Below, piece after piece: positions 1 through 20,393 of a stretch of 21,382 bases of DNA. The position numbers and the translations under genes are program-made. The stretch's first letter is position 1. Each line of letters starts with the position of its first letter. The DNA comes from a virus: the IMG/VR virus record IMGVR_UViG_3300046733_001513, positions 1-21,382 of that record. One strand, written 5' to 3'. Under the pieces are notes generated by a model that saw nothing but the letters and a program-made list of their open reading frames with translations, was not told where the DNA came from and did not search any database.

Positions 1-390
1 ACACATGATCAGATTGATGAATATCATGCTGAGTGCATTGAAGAAGGTTACGAAGGAATTATGTTACGTGATCCATCTATGGTTTATGAACATACTCGAT
101 CAAAGAAACTTCTTAAATATAAACAGTTCACGGATGATGAATTCAAGGTGATTGATATCACCGCGGGTAAGGGTATGCGAGCCACTATGGCTGGTCGAGT
201 CCGTTGTGTGACGAAGGATGGTGTAGAATTCGAAGCATCGATGCAAGGAACTCACGAATACTTTACAGAACTCTTGGAAAAGAGAAGTGAATTCATTGGT
301 CAGATGGCAACTATTCGATATCAGAATCTAACACCAGATGGAAAGCCTCGATTTGGAGTTATGGTTGATATTGGTCGAATAGATATATAA
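1..390 (+). CDS. ATP-dependent DNA ligase, C-terminal part (5' end outside window)
   Basis: The frame is open from base 1, so this is the 3' end of a longer gene, and the ATG at 61 is internal. Ligase motif IV (EGIMLRD, around bases 52-72) lies across that ATG. Motif V follows with the paired lysines of KLLKYK. The remainder fits the OB-fold domain, ending in a segment like TIRYQNLTPDGKPRFG that is typical of phage and bacterial ATP-dependent ligases. The family seals nicks in double-stranded DNA through an enzyme-AMP intermediate; the adenylated lysine would lie upstream of the window. The stop shares its last base with the start of the next gene (TAATG), so the glycan cassette begins directly against this replication gene. 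Family call is confident; which ligase subfamily is not determined. Confidence 0.88.
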   Translation, partial: THDQIDEYHAECIEEGYEGIMLRDPSMVYEHTRSKKLLKYKQFTDDEFKVIDITAGKGMRATMAGRVRCVTKDGVEFEASMQGTHEYFTELLEKRSEFIGQMATIRYQNLTPDGKPRFGVMVDIGRIDI

Positions 391-1325
391 TGAAAAAGTA
401 TAATTGCCTTTTATTCAATAATGAAATATGGTTATTAGAATTGAGAATCAAGCACGATCTTAAAGTGTTTGATTATGTTGTCATATGTGAAGGTGATAAA
501 ACACACAGTGGCTTGGAAAAGCCATATTATTTCGAAAGATATAAACATCTATTTGAAAAATACCTTGATAGGATTATCTATTTTAAGGTGCAATTACCCA
601 AGCCAACTTGGGGTGATTTTAGATCGACAGTAAGCACGGGCAAATCCATCTTTGTTAAAACCAATAGATGGGAAGTAGAACACTATCATCGTTCAATCTT
701 TAAAGAACATATACTCAATATTACTCAGCCTGATGATCTGATAAGATTTAGCGATCTTGATGAGATTCAAAATAATAATGAGATAAAAGAACACAAATGT
801 GCAGATGATATTACTTTTTATCCATACCATAATTATACAAATTTCATTAGTGAAAAGCCTCATGAGAAAGTATGGATAGCACCTTTCGTGACAAGCGCTC
901 GGATTCTGGATAAGATACAACCTGGAGATTATAGAAAGATAAGTGGAAAAATGAATAAGTATATCGTTCATCATATTTGTAATGAAAGATATTTAAGACA
1001 CAATGATTCAATGGAAACTCCAGTATATAATAAATATAAACTTCCTATTCAAGATATAAAATTTCCTAATAGACATTGGGGTATACATTTGTCAAGTGTA
1101 ACGAATCATTTGAATGGTAGAGAAAAAGCACATTCTTTTTCACATGCAGAGGTAGACATAACATTCATCGCGATGCATGGCCCTTCACCCAATGCAGATC
1201 AGATAGAGAAAAATACTGAAGATGTCATTTCCAACTATATCAATACAAAATTAATGATTAAGCCCCATAGATATATTCCGAAGAAACTCTTTCGCGAAAC
1301 CATCTTTGGTGGATTATATGTATAA
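390..1325 (+). CDS. Glycosyltransferase family 17-like protein
   Basis: This 311-residue protein looks like the GT17 family, whose eukaryotic members add a bisecting N-acetylglucosamine to N-glycans. The N-terminus (YNCLLFNNEIWLLELRI, residues 4-20) matches the family's opening, followed by a YVVICEGDKTHSG segment (residues 29-41). The acidic motif DLDEI (residues 122-126) sits where the family has its D-x-D-E-I/V metal and nucleotide-sugar site. A later HWGIHLSS stretch with a following SFSHAE segment fits the conserved family C-terminus. No signal peptide or membrane segment is evident, so it probably acts in the host cytoplasm. Its start overlaps the ligase stop by one base, suggesting translational coupling. 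It opens the glycan cassette. The sugar donor and acceptor cannot be read from the sequence. Confidence 0.82.
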   Translation: MKKYNCLLFNNEIWLLELRIKHDLKVFDYVVICEGDKTHSGLEKPYYFERYKHLFEKYLDRIIYFKVQLPKPTWGDFRSTVSTGKSIFVKTNRWEVEHYHRSIFKEHILNITQPDDLIRFSDLDEIQNNNEIKEHKCADDITFYPYHNYTNFISEKPHEKVWIAPFVTSARILDKIQPGDYRKISGKMNKYIVHHICNERYLRHNDSMETPVYNKYKLPIQDIKFPNRHWGIHLSSVTNHLNGREKAHSFSHAEVDITFIAMHGPSPNADQIEKNTEDVISNYINTKLMIKPHRYIPKKLFRETIFGGLYV

Positions 1326-1330
1326 GAATT

Positions 1331-1338
1331 TATAAATA
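1331..1338 (+). promoter_or_regulatory. T4-type late promoter element TATAAATA
   Basis: Perfect match to the T4 late promoter core in the 26-base gap between two glycosyltransferase genes, ending 13 bases before the ATG at 1352. In T4 this element is read by the sigma gp55 with the sliding clamp, so most of the glycan cassette would be transcribed late. Being intergenic makes chance less likely. Confidence 0.65.
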
Positions 1339-1351
1339 CATATTCTTAATT

Positions 1352-2377
1352 ATGATAATATCAATTGACGAGTATTTCCAAAAGCCAAATTCCACAGAAT
1401 GGAAGGCACTACAACACATGAAGGAAATCGATAGGTTTGTTGATAGCCCTAATGTTTATATCGGATTCCCTTGGGCACAATATATCGATTCTTATATGCA
1501 ACACGTAGGTGTGCAAGATTGTAAAAAATCTTATAAGACATACTGCGCTCTTCTGGTGGAATTGAAGAAAATACAAGCGCGCTTGAAAGAGATGAAAGGC
1601 ACATACAATAAGGTGTTAACTGTTCATCAGCATGTAGCACTCACATCTCCTTTTATCTACGAAAGATGCTTTAGTAAATTCAGAGTTGATACTGTATTCT
1701 GGTCTCATCTATGTGATCGCTCTCTTAGTGTGGGAAATTATAATGAGAATAATTTATTCTATTCAAAACCGTGGGAGAATACCTTTAAGAGAAAGCATAA
1801 TGTTAAACCTTATTATCTTCACCCTATTCAGATCGAAAAGCCTCTGAAAGAAAAAAAATATTTTAAGAAAAGAAAAGAATTATTTTGTTTTTCTGGTTGT
1901 GGTGATAGTGATATGTATATCGATGATATACGACCGAAGATAGCCAAAGTAGAAAATAATAATATAAGAATCATTGATCGTTGGTATTATAGTAAATTTC
2001 GAAAGGATGGCTTTGAATTGAATGAAACAGAGGGGAAAATCTTTGTGGACAAATCATATATAAAACAATTATCGGATTCACATTTTTGTCTATGTCCAAC
2101 AGGAACAGGTCATAACAGTATTCGTATATGGGAGGCAATCAATGCAGGATCGATCCCCGTATTCATTGATAATCTGCCCGAACTTTACAAAACCCGATCT
2201 GCTGATCTAAAAGATAATTGTGTTATTATAAAAAGTAAAGACCTTAATAATCTGGACAAAGTATTAACTTCATATCTAAAAAAATCTAGGCAGATGAGAG
2301 AAAATTTATTTAAGATAGCCAATGAGATAGTGGAAGAACCCGCACATCAATTATATACCGCATATATCACAGGATGA
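1352..2377 (+). CDS. Exostosin-like (GT47-type) glycosyltransferase
   Basis: A 341-residue protein whose C-terminal half carries the signature of the exostosin family: a segment beginning FCLCPTGTG (from residue 245), then RIWEAINAGSIPVF (residues 258-271). The family binds a nucleotide sugar there and transfers hexuronic acid, hexose or similar sugars; animal members polymerise heparan sulfate and plant members build cell-wall polysaccharides. The N-terminal third is poorly recognisable. No membrane anchor is visible, unlike the eukaryotic type II proteins. A late promoter element lies just upstream. The stop overlaps the next gene in an ATGA. The exact sugar specificity is unknown, and other GT-B families share part of this motif. 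Confidence 0.75.
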   Translation: MIISIDEYFQKPNSTEWKALQHMKEIDRFVDSPNVYIGFPWAQYIDSYMQHVGVQDCKKSYKTYCALLVELKKIQARLKEMKGTYNKVLTVHQHVALTSPFIYERCFSKFRVDTVFWSHLCDRSLSVGNYNENNLFYSKPWENTFKRKHNVKPYYLHPIQIEKPLKEKKYFKKRKELFCFSGCGDSDMYIDDIRPKIAKVENNNIRIIDRWYYSKFRKDGFELNETEGKIFVDKSYIKQLSDSHFCLCPTGTGHNSIRIWEAINAGSIPVFIDNLPELYKTRSADLKDNCVIIKSKDLNNLDKVLTSYLKKSRQMRENLFKIANEIVEEPAHQLYTAYITG

Positions 2378-3381
2378 AGAAAAAATTATTTCTGAGTGTA
2401 ACAGAGAAGGCATCCATTTATAATTCATCTAATTACAGGTGGAGAATTGAAAGGGTTTTTAGAGTGGTTGAAGATATGGATGATGCAGATATTATCCTAT
2501 TGACCGATCCATTCTATCATCAACATGATTTCCTTCAGAGAAAAGAAAAGATCAATGCACGACTCTATTCTTTTTCGGATGAACCTATATGGGATTTATA
2601 TTCGAATGTGTGCACACCAGAGAAATTAAAAGAGAATGTGATTGAATGGAACGGTCATGAGATAACACAGTTGAATCATTTTAATAGTGATATCTTTGAA
2701 TTCGACACACTACCATATTATCTCACTCATCACCCAGATATTGTGGCGAAATATATCACTATGTCGATGCAGTGGTCATATAAGACAGATAAAGAACTTG
2801 TTGATATATGGAGAAAGAGACCAATAAATATCCAAGGGCTCGTGGGTAAAGCAAATGGAAGATTCGAAAAAAAGGTATCAAAGGTATACGATGAATGTAA
2901 TATTGTTCGCAGGTCTAAGATAGCACAAGAGATAGGAAAAGATAAAGAAAATCACCTTGATGGAAAAGGATGGTCGATACAGTCTGGTAAAACTTGTGTT
3001 TCAAACGCAAGAGATAATAGATCATGGCACTATCATAAAATGAAATCCTGTATGAGTTCACGGTATCTTCTCTCTATGGAAAATACCCTTGCACCTAATT
3101 ATATCACAGAGAAGATATTCGATGCAGTATTCTCATTGAATGTACCCATCTTTAATTTCCCACCAGATCATAAGTTTCATAAATTAGGATTAAAAGGTAT
3201 AAATATATTCGGAATTGATGATATTAAAACTTATATAAATGACAGTGTAAAGAAAGATAATTCTCAGATTGTTATAGACAATTTAATGCAGGGAAATGAA
3301 ATATTAAAAAGCGCAGGAAATGATATGGTAAAAGAATCCATAAAAAGAATAGAAAAATTAAATAAAAAAGTGAATGAGTAA
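2374..3381 (+). CDS. GT10 fucosyltransferase-like protein
   Basis: A 335-residue protein resembling alpha-1,3/1,4-fucosyltransferases. Residues 231-252 (opening YLLSMENTLAPNYITEK) match the family's donor-binding motif, including the Y-x-T-E-K core at residues 243-247 and the following ...VPIF strand at 257-260. Known family members transfer fucose from GDP-fucose to N-acetylglucosamine or glucose. The N-terminal half (residues 1-150) is diverged, and the acceptor is not predictable. The gene starts within the stop of the exostosin-like gene (ATGA overlap) and ends overlapping the methyltransferase by eight bases, so it is translated as part of one operon. No GDP-fucose synthesis genes are in the window, so the donor would come from the host or from elsewhere in the phage genome. 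Confidence 0.75.
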   Translation: MKKKLFLSVTEKASIYNSSNYRWRIERVFRVVEDMDDADIILLTDPFYHQHDFLQRKEKINARLYSFSDEPIWDLYSNVCTPEKLKENVIEWNGHEITQLNHFNSDIFEFDTLPYYLTHHPDIVAKYITMSMQWSYKTDKELVDIWRKRPINIQGLVGKANGRFEKKVSKVYDECNIVRRSKIAQEIGKDKENHLDGKGWSIQSGKTCVSNARDNRSWHYHKMKSCMSSRYLLSMENTLAPNYITEKIFDAVFSLNVPIFNFPPDHKFHKLGLKGINIFGIDDIKTYINDSVKKDNSQIVIDNLMQGNEILKSAGNDMVKESIKRIEKLNKKVNE

Positions 3382-4204
3382 TGAATCTACATCAAATTCT
3401 GGCATCTTTATTAATAATGATACTGATATAAATCATATATCTCTTAATTCGGGAAAAGAAAAAGAGTCAAATTCTATATGTCCACCAGATGGTAGGATGA
3501 GACACTGGTATAATTTAAATCATGATGATTTATATATTTACCAAGCATCAATAAATGCCGAAACATATCGAAAATCTTTTGAAAAACATTTAGGAGAACT
3601 AAAAGAAGGCGACAAGATCATGGAATTTGGTTGTTCTTCGGGCAGATTGATTCGATGGTTTGAACCCGAAGCATCAAGGGGTGTGGATGTTTGGGGTGTG
3701 GATATAGATGGTCCCGCCATCACTTGGGCTCAACAGAATTTGCCCAGTAATCTGAATTTCTTTATGAATACTACCTCACCGCACTTGCCATTTCGAGATG
3801 ATTCTTTTAATTTTATCTTTGCGGAATCTGTATTTACTCATATCGCCGAACTCGCGGATGCATGGCTTTTAGAATTAGCTCGGGTGATGAATAAAGATAG
3901 AGGACTGGCTATCATATCTATTAATGATGAGAGAGCAATAGAGAACTTAGAAAAAATAAATCCTCCAAAATATAATGAAATGGGAAAGTGTATATATACA
4001 GGTCCTCGCAAGGCTCTTGGCCTTATAAAAGATTTAAAAGAACCTTTTGGGAAATTAACATTCAATGAGGGACCATGGCAAACTGGTGTATGGTATTCAA
4101 ATGAATTTATTCTTTCTAGACTCAATAAAATTTTCGATATCATTGAAATTATACCCTATTATCACAGCATGTATCAAACTGCTTATATTCTAAAGATCAA
4201 ATGA
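3374..4204 (+). CDS. SAM-dependent class I methyltransferase
   Basis: A 276-residue protein with a class I Rossmann-fold methyltransferase core. Motif I is MEFGCSSGRL (residues 83-92), followed by a strand ending VWGVDID (106-112) that supplies the acidic residue binding the SAM ribose. LPFRDDSFNFIFAESVFTH (138-156) matches the usual motif II and III region. The closest-looking group is the methyltransferase_11/25 type, common in polysaccharide loci. Residues 1-45 have low complexity and no recognisable fold, so a start further in (for example the ATG at 3497) is possible. The coupled start at 3374, overlapping the previous stop by eight bases, is preferred. From context it may O-methylate a sugar of the same glycan; small-molecule or protein substrates are not excluded. 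Confidence 0.85.
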   Translation: MSNESTSNSGIFINNDTDINHISLNSGKEKESNSICPPDGRMRHWYNLNHDDLYIYQASINAETYRKSFEKHLGELKEGDKIMEFGCSSGRLIRWFEPEASRGVDVWGVDIDGPAITWAQQNLPSNLNFFMNTTSPHLPFRDDSFNFIFAESVFTHIAELADAWLLELARVMNKDRGLAIISINDERAIENLEKINPPKYNEMGKCIYTGPRKALGLIKDLKEPFGKLTFNEGPWQTGVWYSNEFILSRLNKIFDIIEIIPYYHSMYQTAYILKIK

Positions 4205-5199
4205 TGGAATTCTATAATATTCAATCTTGTTACATAGATGATAAAGACATCTTATATTTTGATGTGTTTATTAAAGATAATCTGCTTTATATAATAAAGC
4301 CAGTCTATTATAAACCCAGACCAAGATTAGAAAAATGGGTGATAAGGGTAAACGGCGAACCAGTTAAACTTACAGAAAATAAAGTATCTTTAGATTGGCG
4401 AACCGAAACAGAGAACGGTGAACCCTTCTGGATAACAAAGTATGAGATAAAGAATGTCTTGGATATTAATGATGTCAGCATCAAGCTGAAAGATATACAT
4501 GAAACATTTCAATTAGTTCCTCATGTAGAAGAGAAAAAATTATTTTCTGTCTCGACACTATTTAAATATGATATTGAAGAGTATGAGAGATGGTATAATT
4601 ACTACAAGGCTCAAGGAGCAGATCATTTTTATATTTATTATAATGGCATATTGAGTGATGATCAAATAAAAATTCTTGAGAATGATGATGTCACACTGAT
4701 TAATTGGGATTTTCGTTATGTAAATTTTCCTTTATTACAAAAGCCACCAGAAGGCTCACACTATAAGTATGGTCATCATGCACAGCCGGCGCAGATAAAT
4801 CATGCCTTCCATCTATTCAATGATCATTATATGCTATTCTGTGATTTTGATGAATTCCTTGAATGGAATGATGGCACATTGAGAGAAATGATTCTCAAAT
4901 ACTCTGATATAGATGTATTTGGTTTCAGAAACTGCTGGGCTAAGTCAGGCTTTGAGAAGAATACATTACACTATGATGATCCATTAGAATACCCGATAAG
5001 AGCGAAGAACATATATAAAGTAGAATCTTATAAGAATTCAATCAAGATTCATAGCCCTTCGATCACAAATGGCTACAATATAAAGAGTGATCTTAATATG
5101 TACCACTTTCATAAGATAAATGCATCAAAGCGATTGTTTGAAAATAAAAATATCTATCCACCTCTTGATTATAAGAATTATAAATATTTTGAATGGTAG
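4201..5199 (+). CDS. GT92/GT2-type glycosyltransferase
   Basis: A 332-residue protein. After a beta-rich N-terminal region (residues 1-110) comes a GT-A glycosyltransferase domain like GT92 and related bacterial glycosyltransferases: a segment starting LFSVSTLFKYDIEEYERW (residues 114-131), the YNYYKAQGADHFYIYYN strand region, and the metal-binding CDFDEFL motif (residues 214-220). Characterised GT92 enzymes add galactose to core fucose or related sugars, but that specificity cannot be assumed here. Start and stop overlap both neighbours (ATGA at 4201; seven bases with the next gene). A second ATG directly follows the first at 4204, so the start is uncertain by one codon. The N-terminal extension may bind the acceptor or another cassette protein. 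Confidence 0.78.
   Translation: MMEFYNIQSCYIDDKDILYFDVFIKDNLLYIIKPVYYKPRPRLEKWVIRVNGEPVKLTENKVSLDWRTETENGEPFWITKYEIKNVLDINDVSIKLKDIHETFQLVPHVEEKKLFSVSTLFKYDIEEYERWYNYYKAQGADHFYIYYNGILSDDQIKILENDDVTLINWDFRYVNFPLLQKPPEGSHYKYGHHAQPAQINHAFHLFNDHYMLFCDFDEFLEWNDGTLREMILKYSDIDVFGFRNCWAKSGFEKNTLHYDDPLEYPIRAKNIYKVESYKNSIKIHSPSITNGYNIKSDLNMYHFHKINASKRLFENKNIYPPLDYKNYKYFEW
5179..5186 (+). promoter_or_regulatory. Possible T4-type late promoter TATAAATA before the sulfotransferase genes
   Basis: Perfect eight-base match, but inside the last codons of the preceding glycosyltransferase, where AT-rich codons could produce it by chance. It ends six bases before the ATG at 5193, close to the five-base spacing seen at five other starts. 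This makes a separate promoter for the three sulfotransferase genes plausible. Confidence 0.42.
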
Positions 5200-5753
5200 A
5201 TGATAAGAGAAAGTGCGTATTCATACATATACCAAAGTGTGCTGGCAATTCAATTGTAGATGCTTTTGGTATCCATGTTCATAGTCATCAGCCCGCCAAT
5301 TATTACTGGCGAGAGAAAAAAATATTAGATTACTATCTCTTCTCCTTTGTTCGTAACCCTTGGGATAGATTCCTCAGCGCTTATCTTTTCTTGAAAGACG
5401 GTGGAATGAACGATGTAGATAAATTGGCAGCGAAGAATCTAATTAAAGGAAGAGACTTCGAAGAATTTTTATTAGATACTCCGATACATGAAATTCTTCA
5501 ACAAACACACTTTAAAAGATTAACACATTTCTTGAATAGAAAAATTGATTTCATTGGAAAATATGAAAATCTAGATGAAGATTTTAAACAACTATTGATA
5601 AATATTGGAGAGGATGATATAGAACTACCTCATCTTAATGCTACCCGCAATAAGAAACATTATACAGAATATTATAATGATAAGACTATTAAGGCTATAA
5701 GAAAACTTTACTTCAGAGATATAAAATTATTTAATTACGAGTTTGGAAAATGA
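5193..5753 (+). CDS. Carbohydrate sulfotransferase-like protein, copy 1
   Basis: A 186-residue member of the sulfotransferase_2 type, which moves sulfate from PAPS to a sugar hydroxyl. The 5'-phosphosulfate loop is FIHIPKCAGNS (residues 10-20, catalytic-loop Lys15). The 3'-phosphate site is FVRNPWDRFLSAY (52-64, Arg54 and Ser62). Both are near-canonical, making this the most typical of the three copies. It ends with a HYTEYYND...LFNYEFGK tail shared with the next two proteins. It lacks the membrane anchor of Golgi enzymes and is shorter than most animal members, so a soluble cytoplasmic enzyme is likely. The start overlaps the preceding gene by seven bases. The acceptor is unknown; the neighbouring glycosyltransferases suggest a glycan. 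Confidence 0.88.
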   Translation: MVDDKRKCVFIHIPKCAGNSIVDAFGIHVHSHQPANYYWREKKILDYYLFSFVRNPWDRFLSAYLFLKDGGMNDVDKLAAKNLIKGRDFEEFLLDTPIHEILQQTHFKRLTHFLNRKIDFIGKYENLDEDFKQLLINIGEDDIELPHLNATRNKKHYTEYYNDKTIKAIRKLYFRDIKLFNYEFGK

Positions 5754-6415
5754 GAATATCACACAAACACAAATTTATTTTTTACGCCATCAATAAGACA
5801 GGTAGTTCATCTATTCGTGATTATTTTTATAGAGTTTTGAAAGATGACTACGATGAAAATATCACTGTCGGGACGCCGAAGCCACGTCAATGGAATCATC
5901 ACCATAATGACTTTAATGCTGTTAAAAAACATTTCGAAACAATAGAATATAATTATGATGATTATATCAAATTTGCTTTCATACGAAACCCTTGGGATAG
6001 AGAATTATCAATTTATCATTTCAAATTAAGGCGCAGAGACGAGAGCAAATGCCCCGCGGCGACTTGGCAATTGGGAGATTCTGGAAATTCATTTAAAGAA
6101 TGGATCAAAAGTGACCAGTATATGAAAAAATCAAATGATGTTCATGCTTATCAACATAAGTGGTTAGATTTTAATGACCCTAAATTCTTTGCTTTTTCAT
6201 ATGAGAATCTACAAAAGGATTTTGATTCAATGATTGAGTTGATAAATGCTCATTCCTCTGCTGCTGACCTACCTAAAAAGAAATTATCTCATCAGATGAT
6301 GGGTCAATATAAGCATATTCCTTACACAGAATATTATGATGAAGAGATGGTAGAGATTGTATCTAAAAAATTTGCAAAAGATATTGAGATATTCAACTAT
6401 AAATTCGGAGAATAA
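5750..6415 (+). CDS. Sulfotransferase-like protein, copy 2
   Basis: A 221-residue paralogue of the preceding protein. The 5'-phosphosulfate loop is altered to YAINKTGSSSI (residues 12-22), keeping Lys16 but with Asn in place of the usual Pro. The 3'-phosphate motif FIRNPWDRELSIY (77-89) keeps Arg79 and Ser87. The tail again reads YTEYYDEE...IFNYKFGE. A His-rich stretch (residues 50-52) and a longer middle region distinguish it from copy 1, where acceptor choice would be expected to differ. The start lies in the stop of copy 1 (ATGA). A run of about 20 bases around the RNPWD codons is identical to copy 3, which supports duplication within this lineage. Activity is likely but unproven. Confidence 0.83.
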   Translation: MRISHKHKFIFYAINKTGSSSIRDYFYRVLKDDYDENITVGTPKPRQWNHHHNDFNAVKKHFETIEYNYDDYIKFAFIRNPWDRELSIYHFKLRRRDESKCPAATWQLGDSGNSFKEWIKSDQYMKKSNDVHAYQHKWLDFNDPKFFAFSYENLQKDFDSMIELINAHSSAADLPKKKLSHQMMGQYKHIPYTEYYDEEMVEIVSKKFAKDIEIFNYKFGE

Positions 6416-6421
6416 AAAAAA

Positions 6422-7036
6422 ATGATTTTATCAGATAAGTATAAATTTATATTCATCAGACAGCAGAAGATAGGTGGTGCTACGATGGAGAAAAATGGGA
6501 TCGCTGTAATCGACCCAAACTACATTAAATTTACCAAGGATAAATGTCCAGGTGAAGACCCAAATCATATGAGATGTGAGACAATTGCAGACCTGATACC
6601 TCATAAGTATGATAATTACTTTAGATTTACTTTCATACGAAACCCTTGGGCAAGATTGGTCTCTTTATATTTTCATATCAACCAAGGTGCCAGTGAAGAA
6701 ATGTGGAAGAAAGAATATCATGAGAAAAATTTTAATCCTTACAGAAAGACATTCGATCAATTTATAAAAGAATGCGATAATAAATTATGGGCCAATTCTT
6801 TTTTACCCATGAAAGATTTTGCTGGTGATGTGGATTATATAGGTAAGACAGAGAACTTACAAGAGGATTTTAATTATATATGCGATTGTATAGGTGCACC
6901 TAGAAAAGATATTGGATGGGGAAATAAAGGAAATCATAAGTTGTACACTGAATATTATAATGATGAGACGAGAGAAATAGTCGCACAAAGATATGCAGAA
7001 GACATAGCTGCATTTAATTATGAGTTTGGAAAATAA
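6422..7036 (+). CDS. Sulfotransferase-like protein, copy 3 (divergent)
   Basis: A 204-residue paralogue of the two preceding proteins. The 5'-phosphosulfate loop is the most divergent: FIRQQKIGGAT (residues 11-21) keeps Lys16 but not the surrounding Pro-Lys context. The 3'-phosphate motif FIRNPWARLVSLY (71-83) keeps Arg73 and Ser81 and replaces the Asp of RNPWD with Ala. The tail YTEYYNDE...AFNYEFGK matches the other two copies. The start is separated from copy 2 by six A-rich bases, with a GGAG eleven bases upstream that could be a weak ribosome binding site. It overlaps the next gene by 17 bases. It may use a different acceptor or be catalytically weakened; the sequence cannot decide. Confidence 0.78.
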   Translation: MILSDKYKFIFIRQQKIGGATMEKNGIAVIDPNYIKFTKDKCPGEDPNHMRCETIADLIPHKYDNYFRFTFIRNPWARLVSLYFHINQGASEEMWKKEYHEKNFNPYRKTFDQFIKECDNKLWANSFLPMKDFAGDVDYIGKTENLQEDFNYICDCIGAPRKDIGWGNKGNHKLYTEYYNDETREIVAQRYAEDIAAFNYEFGK

Positions 7037-10456: not shown

Positions 10457-10464
10457 TATAAATA
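10457..10464 (+). promoter_or_regulatory. T4-type late promoter TATAAATA before gp8
   Basis: Perfect core in the 44-base gap between gp15 and gp8, ending 27 bases before the ATG at 10492. It implies a short A-rich leader of roughly 20 bases with no clear Shine-Dalgarno sequence. Confidence 0.78.
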
Positions 10465-18231: not shown

Positions 18232-19500
18232 ATGCCGAATTCAAAAATAATACTCACTAAAACATCGAGACCTAATGCAACACCTCACCCAAATGATCTC
18301 GATTATGGTGAACTAGCGATTAACTATGAGGATGGTTTTTTGTTCTTTAAGAATTCTAGTAATAGGATTTCAAAGATTGCTTCAAGCGGTAGTTTTAGCC
18401 AACTTACTCGACATCTCGCAGATAGAGAAAATCCGCATGAAGTAACCAAGGATCAGATCGGTTTAGATCAGGTAGATAATTCGTCTGATTTAAATAAACC
18501 AATTTCTAATGCGGCGCAAACGGCATTGGATAAAAAAGTAAATTTAACAACTCTTAATGCCAACTATTATACCGATGATGAAACGGATGCAAAGATTTCT
18601 CAAAAATTCAGCGAGATTGATGTTAGAATCGAAAATCCGACCCCAACTGCTCCCGCGGGTAGTTTGAGTTATGCTTCCAATAGTAATACATTCAGTTACA
18701 TACAACCCACTATTCCAACTTTGAGTGATCTTGGTGGTGTTGGTATTGATGATATTTTTATCCAACCTCTCGCACCTTCTTCTGGTTCAGGTACTCTATC
18801 ATATCTAGGGAATGGAATATTCTCCTATGATAAGCCCACGATTAGAGGTATTGGTGGATATGCAAGAACTGAAATAGGTTTAAAACAGAAAACTGCAGAC
18901 AGATCATTAGATGGAACTTTAACATATAATGATGGATTTTTCACATATGATAAGCCCACAATTGCTGGGATAACTGAAGGAAAGATAACTTTAGTTGATG
19001 GAGTTCTAGATATAGAGGGTTTTGTAACAGATGCTGAGTTAAATACCTTTAAAACTAAAGAAGGACAAGATATTACAAGTCTTCAAAGTCAGATCACCAG
19101 TAATGACAATGATATCACAGATCTGAAAGGAAAAGATGTAAATCTTCAAAGTCAGATCACCAGTAATGACAATGATATAGCAGTTTTACAAAATAGAGTT
19201 ACCAGTAATGACAATGATATCACTGCAATACAAAACAAAAATACATCTCAAGATGGTAACATAACATCCTTGTCAAATAGAATTACCAGTAATGACAATG
19301 ATATAGCAGTTTTACAAAATAGAGTTACCAGTAATGACAATGATATCACTGCAATACAAAACAAAAATACATCTCAAGATGTTGCAATAAATAATAAGGT
19401 GTCAAATTTGGGCTCTGTGACAGGAATCATCAAATTGACCCAGGGCGAATATGATGCACTTACACCAAATGCTTCCACAGTTTATATTATTGTTGATTAA
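18232..19500 (+). CDS. Tail fibre protein with heptad repeats
   Basis: A 422-residue fibre. The N-terminus carries the phage-fibre attachment pattern LDYGELAINYEDGFLFFKN, followed by ENPHEVTKDQIGLDQVDNSS, the common fibre repeat, and a YYTDDETDAKI segment. Three copies of a G-x-L-x-Y...F-x-Y-x-x-P-T module follow near residues 142, 186 and 226. Residues about 284-386 form a long heptad array built from units such as ITSNDND, IAVLQNR and ITAIQNK, consistent with a trimeric coiled-coil shaft. The end (LTQGEYDALTPNASTVYIIV) is a small C-terminal module seen in other phage proteins. It is too short to contain an obvious large receptor-binding tip, so that may lie in a neighbouring gene. Confidence 0.8.
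   Translation: MPNSKIILTKTSRPNATPHPNDLDYGELAINYEDGFLFFKNSSNRISKIASSGSFSQLTRHLADRENPHEVTKDQIGLDQVDNSSDLNKPISNAAQTALDKKVNLTTLNANYYTDDETDAKISQKFSEIDVRIENPTPTAPAGSLSYASNSNTFSYIQPTIPTLSDLGGVGIDDIFIQPLAPSSGSGTLSYLGNGIFSYDKPTIRGIGGYARTEIGLKQKTADRSLDGTLTYNDGFFTYDKPTIAGITEGKITLVDGVLDIEGFVTDAELNTFKTKEGQDITSLQSQITSNDNDITDLKGKDVNLQSQITSNDNDIAVLQNRVTSNDNDITAIQNKNTSQDGNITSLSNRITSNDNDIAVLQNRVTSNDNDITAIQNKNTSQDVAINNKVSNLGSVTGIIKLTQGEYDALTPNASTVYIIVD
19080..19381 (+). repeat. In-frame direct repeats in steps of 21 bases within the fibre gene
   Basis: A 20-base core (ACCAGTAATGACAATGATAT) occurs five times, at 19096, 19159, 19201, 19285 and 19327. The spacings are 63, 42, 84 and 42 bases, all multiples of 21 (seven codons). 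Within this array, 19159-19255 is identical to 19285-19381 (97 bases, offset 126), and 19080-19115 is identical to 19143-19178 (36 bases, offset 63). The frame is preserved throughout, so the repeats encode coiled-coil heptads. Confidence 0.93.
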
Positions 19501-19502
19501 TT

Positions 19503-20159
19503 ATGATATTAAATAATCTTCAAGGGAAAGTATTTATGGGAAATCAAGAGGTTTCACAAATATATCACGGCACTGTTCCTTTATGGATAGGTACAGTTGA
19601 GGTTAGTTTTACAACCAAAATCAATATCTGGTTCGATAATTCTGGCTCAATGGATTCAACACTAGATGATTTGCAAAGAATGCAAGCAAATAATCTTAAA
19701 ACCACTCTCCTTCCTTTTTATAATAATGATGAAGAAAGATATGATTCATTAGTGACGGTAAGAAATTTTGGTCGAGGTAGTGGATATGAAAATTCTATTT
19801 ATCTTGGAGGTGCTGATATGTTAGCTGCCGCATCCCAAGACCCACCAACAAATGTAATCAATATCATGTTTCAAGATGAAGATTCATCTCCCGGCACTTC
19901 GAATTCCGTTGCTAGAGCGTTTCTCAAGAATGGGCTAAATTCTAATATTAAAAATGCCGCCATTTTTAACCGTGTGTCTAATGGCAAGAGCTCGGGTACT
20001 CGTTTCAGAAATTCTCTTACATCATTGAGATCAACAGGAGGTGTATTTGCATCTCAATGTGATTATAATCTTGATGTCACAAAAAATGCTGGGCGTGCAT
20101 ATTACGCGGGTTTAATCGAAACTTCACTGTTAAGATTGGGACTTGAGAAAGCAGAATAA
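19503..20159 (+). CDS. Virion-like protein with von Willebrand A (MIDAS) domain
   Basis: A 218-residue protein. Residues about 8-30 (GKVFMGNQEVSQIYHGTVPL) resemble short N-terminal elements found in phage tail proteins of the GNxEVxxIYxG type. From residue 39 a VWA-like domain begins: KINIWFDNSGSMDSTLDDLQ contains the metal-ion-dependent adhesion site D45-x-S47-x-S49. A second strand ending INIMFQDEDSS (119-129) sits where VWA domains carry a loop Asp. VWA domains bind protein ligands through a divalent cation. Its place between a tail fibre and another fibre-like gene suggests a virion surface or host-binding role. No signal peptide is present. A VWA used in complex assembly, as in chaperone-linked VWA proteins, is an alternative, but no AAA-ATPase partner is present here. 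Confidence 0.7.
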   Translation: MILNNLQGKVFMGNQEVSQIYHGTVPLWIGTVEVSFTTKINIWFDNSGSMDSTLDDLQRMQANNLKTTLLPFYNNDEERYDSLVTVRNFGRGSGYENSIYLGGADMLAAASQDPPTNVINIMFQDEDSSPGTSNSVARAFLKNGLNSNIKNAAIFNRVSNGKSSGTRFRNSLTSLRSTGGVFASQCDYNLDVTKNAGRAYYAGLIETSLLRLGLEKAE

Positions 20160-20165
20160 TAAAAT

Positions 20166-20393
20166 ATGTATCACTTAATTTTTAAAAAAGAAGAAGACGC
20201 ATGGAAGAGGTCTCTTAAAGAAGGAAAGAAATTTCCAAAGAAGATAAATCCAAATGTGTGTAATAGATTCGAAATGTCTTTCGGATATGTAACCAAACCA
20301 ATTTTAACACCAGAGAATGATTATGTTCTTCCAATAGAAAACTATAAGTTGACTAAGAAAGAAGAAGATGAAAAAATCATATACCCATATTAA
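20166..20393 (+). CDS. Hypothetical 75-residue protein
   Basis: A short, Lys- and Glu-rich protein with no recognised family. It has a basic N-terminal half (for example KEGKKFPKKINPN), a central VTKPILTPEN segment and an acidic-basic end. No signal peptide, membrane segment or metal motif is visible. The gene lies six bases after the VWA gene and 17 bases before the next fibre-like gene, on the same strand, and the tight packing supports a real gene. It may be a small accessory or assembly factor for the neighbouring fibres, but that is only context. Confidence 0.55.
   Translation: MYHLIFKKEEDAWKRSLKEGKKFPKKINPNVCNRFEMSFGYVTKPILTPENDYVLPIENYKLTKKEEDEKIIYPY

Follow-up and report, generated by a model that had tools for sequence, protein, structure and literature searches.

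What is the function of a small protein that is encoded directly behind a tail-fibre gene and carries the signature of a von Willebrand A (VWA) domain? The question arises from a virus record of 21,382 bases, analysed at its full length and here called the window, which represents a T4-like marine myovirus with genes for a sheath stabiliser, a gp8-like wedge and a DUF4815 baseplate protein, the last about 31 % identical to the protein of Pelagibacter phage Mosig and of cyanophages. An ORF of 218 amino acids at 19503-20159 on the plus strand, composed of an N-terminal anchor module and a VWA domain, had been singled out in an earlier note for the motif DNSGSM at residues 45-50, a hydrophobic strand before it and a tail-protein-like N-terminus, all in a setting of tail-fibre genes. 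The translated ORF contains the motif exactly there, preceded by the strand KINIWF, and 24 of its first 28 residues are the same in the positional homologue of the related phage L008. The setting was also as described: a coiled-coil tail fibre of 422 amino acids (18232-19500, plus strand; PHROG tail-fibre and minor tail matches), the putative shaft bearing the tip, stops 2 bases before the ORF, and an ORF of 75 amino acids (20166-20393, plus strand) begins 6 bases behind it and is followed by another long fibre-like ORF. An identical copy of the 218-aa ORF is present in L001/L003; close 8-mer pattern searches for its relatives yielded nothing beyond the identical record or L008.

The motif is weak by itself, because in related loci a loose pattern of a hydrophobic strand plus [DN]x[ST]x[ST] picks up unrelated structural ORFs by the dozen; the motif match alone was dropped as evidence for a VWA domain on this ground. 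Viral contigs searched by pattern for stretches resembling IxFDxSGSMxxTL gave 74 of them, nearly all from one clear family with shared features past the motif (FYxND...Y...V, ERT, VINLVFQDE, FQV, AV.NGTG.YSG..GLSD and YY...I..ALN.LGY). The 218-aa protein diverges from the rest of the family and is shorter, lacking the stretches 'YxxDIxxLR' and 'GLSD'. A profile of 48 other viral family proteins matched the 218-aa protein with 104.7 bits. After masking of residues 37-56, the part by which the family had been recruited, the score was 60.4 bits versus a best score of 9.0 among 2000 shuffles. Judged from the sequences, family membership of the 218-aa protein is independent of the motif, and it is this membership that places the protein among VWA proteins above chance. 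Pfam, including PF00092 and PF25106, had no match for the 218-aa protein and none for two other family members, and PHROGs had an insignificant match alone for the 218-aa protein (E 0.09). Matches in phmmer to the solved structures 7toj and 2d5k were rejected as chance. In 50,697 phage records, tblastn found no match to the 218-aa protein or to four other family members, thus no proteomics-backed isolate is tied to the domain.

The structure prediction that had been proposed as a check of the fold bore it out. An earlier AF2 model from a 2-row alignment was useless (pLDDT 28). With an alignment of 66 rows the mean pLDDT was 77, and the domain at residues 36-215 (19608-20147, plus strand) was modelled mostly at 70-96, less well in the loops around residues 91-100 and 131-140. 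VIA-align gave vWF A1 as best match (Z 12.9) and integrin domains at Z about 12; VWA or integrin I domains made up nearly all of the fifty matches listed, with Z between 10.7 and 12.9 and one row titled B19V capsid. Structural alignments to integrin and vWF A1 domains had about 10-15 % identity. Foldseek matches in the PDB were weak and mixed, VWA domains being ranked alongside other Rossmann-like folds (best E 7e-3). BFVD ranked a viral protein without a name first (E 1.8e-7), and next came several entries from uncultured phages and giant viruses that are annotated as VWFA proteins. On the basis of the AF2 model, the VIA-align matches and the family profile, residues 36-215 almost certainly adopt a VWA fold.

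The complete MIDAS that the earlier note had named as a check was recovered in part: loops 1 and 3 stood, whereas the classical Thr of loop 2 is not clearly present and a near-invariant Glu is found in that area. Loop 1 is D45-x-S47-x-S49-M50 (19635-19652, plus strand), with D, S and S each in 64 and M in all 66 rows of alignment A4. A MIDAS has its loop-3 Asp after the fourth strand, a place taken by D125; the candidate pair D125-E126 (19875-19880, plus strand; D in 64 and E in 66 of 66 rows) follows strand 117-124 in the AF2 model. In the loop-2 area the loop is short, position 98 is T or S in 41 of 66 rows, and E96 (19788-19790, plus strand), located before helix 98-111, is conserved in 64 of 66. 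No polar positions are better conserved than D45, S47, S49, E96, D125 and E126, each kept in 64 to 66 of the 66 rows, and D/S/S and the loop-3 Asp occur together in 62 rows. The counts for loop 1 are partly circular, because many alignment rows were recruited with that motif; independent evidence comes from D125/E126 in the rows so recruited and from loop 1 in the rows found by FQDE. The fold of the window domain is like that of integrin beta I and vWF A1 domains. The beta-I MIDAS combines a DxSxS-M loop 1 with an acid near loop 2 and an Asp in loop 3, and a Glu serves in the loop-2 area of integrin beta domains; by analogy, E96 could be a metal ligand of loop 2. This is a resemblance of site type and does not imply shared ancestry. 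Metal binding is uncertain, because no clear loop-2 Thr is seen and little sequence lies between the second strand and loop 3; metal-dependent binding by the VWA domain, with a metal that we infer from the site, appears moderately probable. Four family members (L164, L168, L167 and L189) miss part of the DxSxS/loop-3 set and are, as read from their sequences, possibly metal-independent versions.

Comparison with related phages revealed an exchange at this locus. L008 is about 85 % identical to the window across much of the region; its fibre is 55 % identical to the 422-aa fibre and its copy of the 75-aa ORF 94 % identical. The latter ORF bounds the exchanged slot and is identical on the amino acid level in L005/L007. 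In the slot, L008 has an ORF of 207 amino acids (17702-18325 of L008) with the same 2-base spacing to the fibre; the anchor common to both phages is followed by a different VWA domain, which matches Pfam VWA_4 (E 1.3e-8). From the match to this ORF, the anchor was delimited to residues 1-30 (MILNNLQGKVFMGNQEVSQIYHGTVPLWIG; 19503-19592, plus strand), a module with low AF2 confidence on its own and predicted to dock on the fibre. The flanking DNA and the 30-residue anchor are about 85-95 % identical, and between the alignable flanks the cassette at 19620-20139 (plus strand) could not be aligned above background with L008. The DNA identity was 0.85-0.90 at 19460-19579, about 0.4 at 19620-20099 and 0.88-0.97 from 20180, and the blastn pieces stop near 19590 and restart at 20159. 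Exchange of the domain as a unit between related phages is shown computationally here, and slot exchange is the manner in which receptor-recognition tips evolve. Aligned profile against profile, the family and the lone VWA_4 domain of L008 matched over no more than the first 30 positions, thus a shared origin of the two exchanged heads is supported no further than the fold. L005 and L007 lack the small ORF and have a fibre of 928 amino acids that parts from the window fibre near residue 327 of the latter. The 422-aa fibre ends in a Phage_tail_C segment (PF24243; 19426-19494, plus strand; E 1.2e-5, exceeding the curated cut-off), a candidate docking site of the anchor. According to Pfam, this fibre end is present in the window and in L008 (3.5e-6) together with the anchored ORF, and absent in L005 without it. 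A search with the 75-aa ORF for further slot alleles retrieved only the three already known, hence the swap and the co-occurrence with PF24243 rest on few genomes.

The domain was detected in 166 ORFs, corresponding to 123 distinct carrier sequences, and no more than 20 residues follow it in 138 of these ORFs, with a median of 1. The crAss-type muzzle (PF25731) was matched in Pfam by the three carriers tested (L122, 2e-18; L119, 4e-14; L115, 9e-17), and another 20 carriers have muzzle-like N-termini, recognised by pattern only. The tail of phicrAss001 ends in the muzzle, which is probably in contact with the cell (PMC10172136). A structural protein of the cultured Cellulophaga phage phi13:2 aligns with L122 to residue 1323, the domain starts at 1319, and the C-terminus differs. 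A second group of carriers (L203-L206 and L208) was identified by N-terminal similarity as Bacteroidota contractile injection fibres of the crown type that end in the VWA family. In L204 (Aquimarina), where Pfam misses the domain, the fibre is encoded behind gp25 and baseplate-J genes and contains PKD; its N-part matches the tCIS protein 7b5h (2e-27) and 9wt0 (6e-107). Lipoprotein-like ORFs of Flavobacteriaceae, about 500-555 amino acids long and with the domain at the C-terminus, were also observed (L195, L196, L197, L199, L201, L202, L207, L210 and L211). The one in L195 sits among chromosomal housekeeping genes. These lipoprotein-like carriers are possibly bacterial adhesins, and the carriers as a whole are mostly surface- or target-facing proteins.

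In T2-type phages, gp38 is encoded by a small gene adjoining the fibre gene. This gp38, known from T2, PP01 and S16, is a separate receptor-binding protein at the tip of the gp37 fibre with a variable recognition part (PMC12892980). The 218-aa protein is likewise encoded by a separate small ORF directly behind the fibre gene, with a constant N-part and a variable head; the heads differ, however, in that the VWA head of the window is exchanged whole, whereas that of gp38 is a poly-glycine-II sandwich with variable loops. The likeness is one of arrangement, without sequence kinship; the 218-aa protein may work like gp38 and is not classed as gp38. By analogy, gp38 of T2-type phages is the closest functional parallel. 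A VWA domain in a baseplate/fibre protein, together with domain substitution, was recognised in 2007 from the sequence of gp164 of Bacillus phage 0305phi8-36 (PMC2147016). There too the VWA domain belongs to a virion-gene region of a phage and is swapped for another domain between related elements, but it is located mid-protein and in another phage lineage, and the VWA domain of the window is missed by Pfam. Fibres of eCIS (eBAP4 group) contain VWA, PKD and Ig modules (PMC12923769). The Bacteroidota injection fibres described above end in the same domain family as the 218-aa protein; these eCIS/tCIS fibres are long single chains, whereas the tip of the T4-like phage is a separate protein of 218 amino acids. 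The same family stands at the C-terminus of the crAss-type muzzle in the uncultured phages L115, L119 and L122; the muzzle, in contrast, is a hexamer at the end of another type of tail. VWA domains in phage fibre regions and in eCIS fibres are thus already known, and because PMC2147016 and PMC12923769 are precedents, the protein is not new in category. The remark in the earlier note that it knew of no described T4-like virion protein of this type agrees with the open-access literature searched, in which no T4-like example was found described.

We favour the reading of the 218-aa protein as a two-part fibre-tip adhesin. The anchor, approximately the first 30 residues, would dock on the C-terminal segment of the upstream fibre, as gp38 does on gp37 in T2-type phages. 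The VWA domain, residues 36-215, would then be located at the exposed fibre end with a MIDAS-type acidic site of D45, S47, S49, D125 and perhaps E96, and this head would bind a host surface molecule, probably via a bound divalent cation. Related phages would swap the whole head on the same anchor, or the anchor and the fibre end together, and head exchange would change the recognition by the fibre. An exposed role at the fibre tip is likely; the two-part adhesin as a whole, for which we infer docking, presence in the virion, metal and ligand, is held as rather probable. The adhesion that the earlier note put forward as a possibility has gained support from the cassette swap between conserved flanks and from the relatives placed C-terminally on tail-tip and injection fibres.

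In T4, fibre chaperones are encoded behind fibre genes, and a small protein directly after a fibre gene could also serve in structure or assembly. In that case the VWA domain would cap, trimerise or chaperone the fibre and then leave, or stay without host contact, on the model of gp38 of T4 (not of T2), of gp57A or of phage VWA proteins working with MoxR ATPases. MoxR-VWA pairs have been proposed to act in virion assembly of jumbo phages (PMC7824862). No AAA+ ATPase was detected among the window proteins scanned, and a MoxR-VWA cochaperone was rejected for the missing partner. A dissociating chaperone makes little sense for relatives that have the domain fused C-terminally to long structural proteins, lipoproteins and eCIS fibres, and a head swap on a constant anchor suits recognition better than folding; an assembly factor is considered unlikely. 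The missing loop-2 Thr and the four family members that lost part of the motif would agree with a metal-free tip domain, whose loops bind the host or another part of the virion and whose MIDAS residues only maintain the fold. Yet just these residues, together with E96 and E126, are conserved more strongly than any other polar positions of the family, and we regard a metal-free tip as quite unlikely.

Free-standing domain lipoproteins in chromosomes of Flavobacteriaceae, such as that of L195, could be taken as precedent for a mobile passenger without attachment function, e.g., a decoy or another host-interaction protein, located by chance amid the fibre genes. Against such a passenger, which seems very improbable, speak the 2-base spacing to the fibre, the anchor conserved in both phages and the lack of a promoter-like TATAAATA directly before the 218-aa ORF. 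Upstream of the fibre genes such a site, T4-late-promoter-like and weak, comes no nearer than 10457-10464 (plus strand), a position that fits but does not prove a common late transcript of the fibre genes. Seven sites were counted in the window, all on the plus strand, for an expectation of 3.6 on both strands; at least seven were obtained in 8 of 100 shuffles.

For most uncultured marine phages host recognition is unknown, partly since the fibre tips match no profile. The domain family is lacking in Pfam and barely touched by PHROGs, yet many metagenomic phages have it at the C-terminus of their tail proteins, and such tips could be annotated with a profile of the family. Cation-dependent adsorption becomes a concrete test. 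Tentatively, and with less than even confidence, the adhesin reading may be widened to the whole unclassified VWA family. Its integrin-beta-like site, made up of DxSxS, the Glu near loop 2 and the Asp-Glu pair of loop 3, might characterise a general metal-dependent swappable tip of T4-like fibres, crAss-type muzzles, Bacteroidota injection fibres and flavobacterial lipoproteins, which in T4-like phages would sit on a dedicated docking anchor that accepts different VWA heads.

Two further observations concern the window itself. The coiled-coil of the 422-aa fibre contains near-perfect direct repeats at 19061-19381, of about 110 and about 55 bases and 91-96 % identical, at which recombination could produce a variable shaft length. 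The block at 390-7033 encodes glycosyltransferases (GT17, GT47 exostosin, GT10 and GT92), a methyltransferase and three Sulfotransfer_2 genes in a row; taken together, these genes suggest that a sulfated glycan is made, which might sit on the host surface or on the virion.
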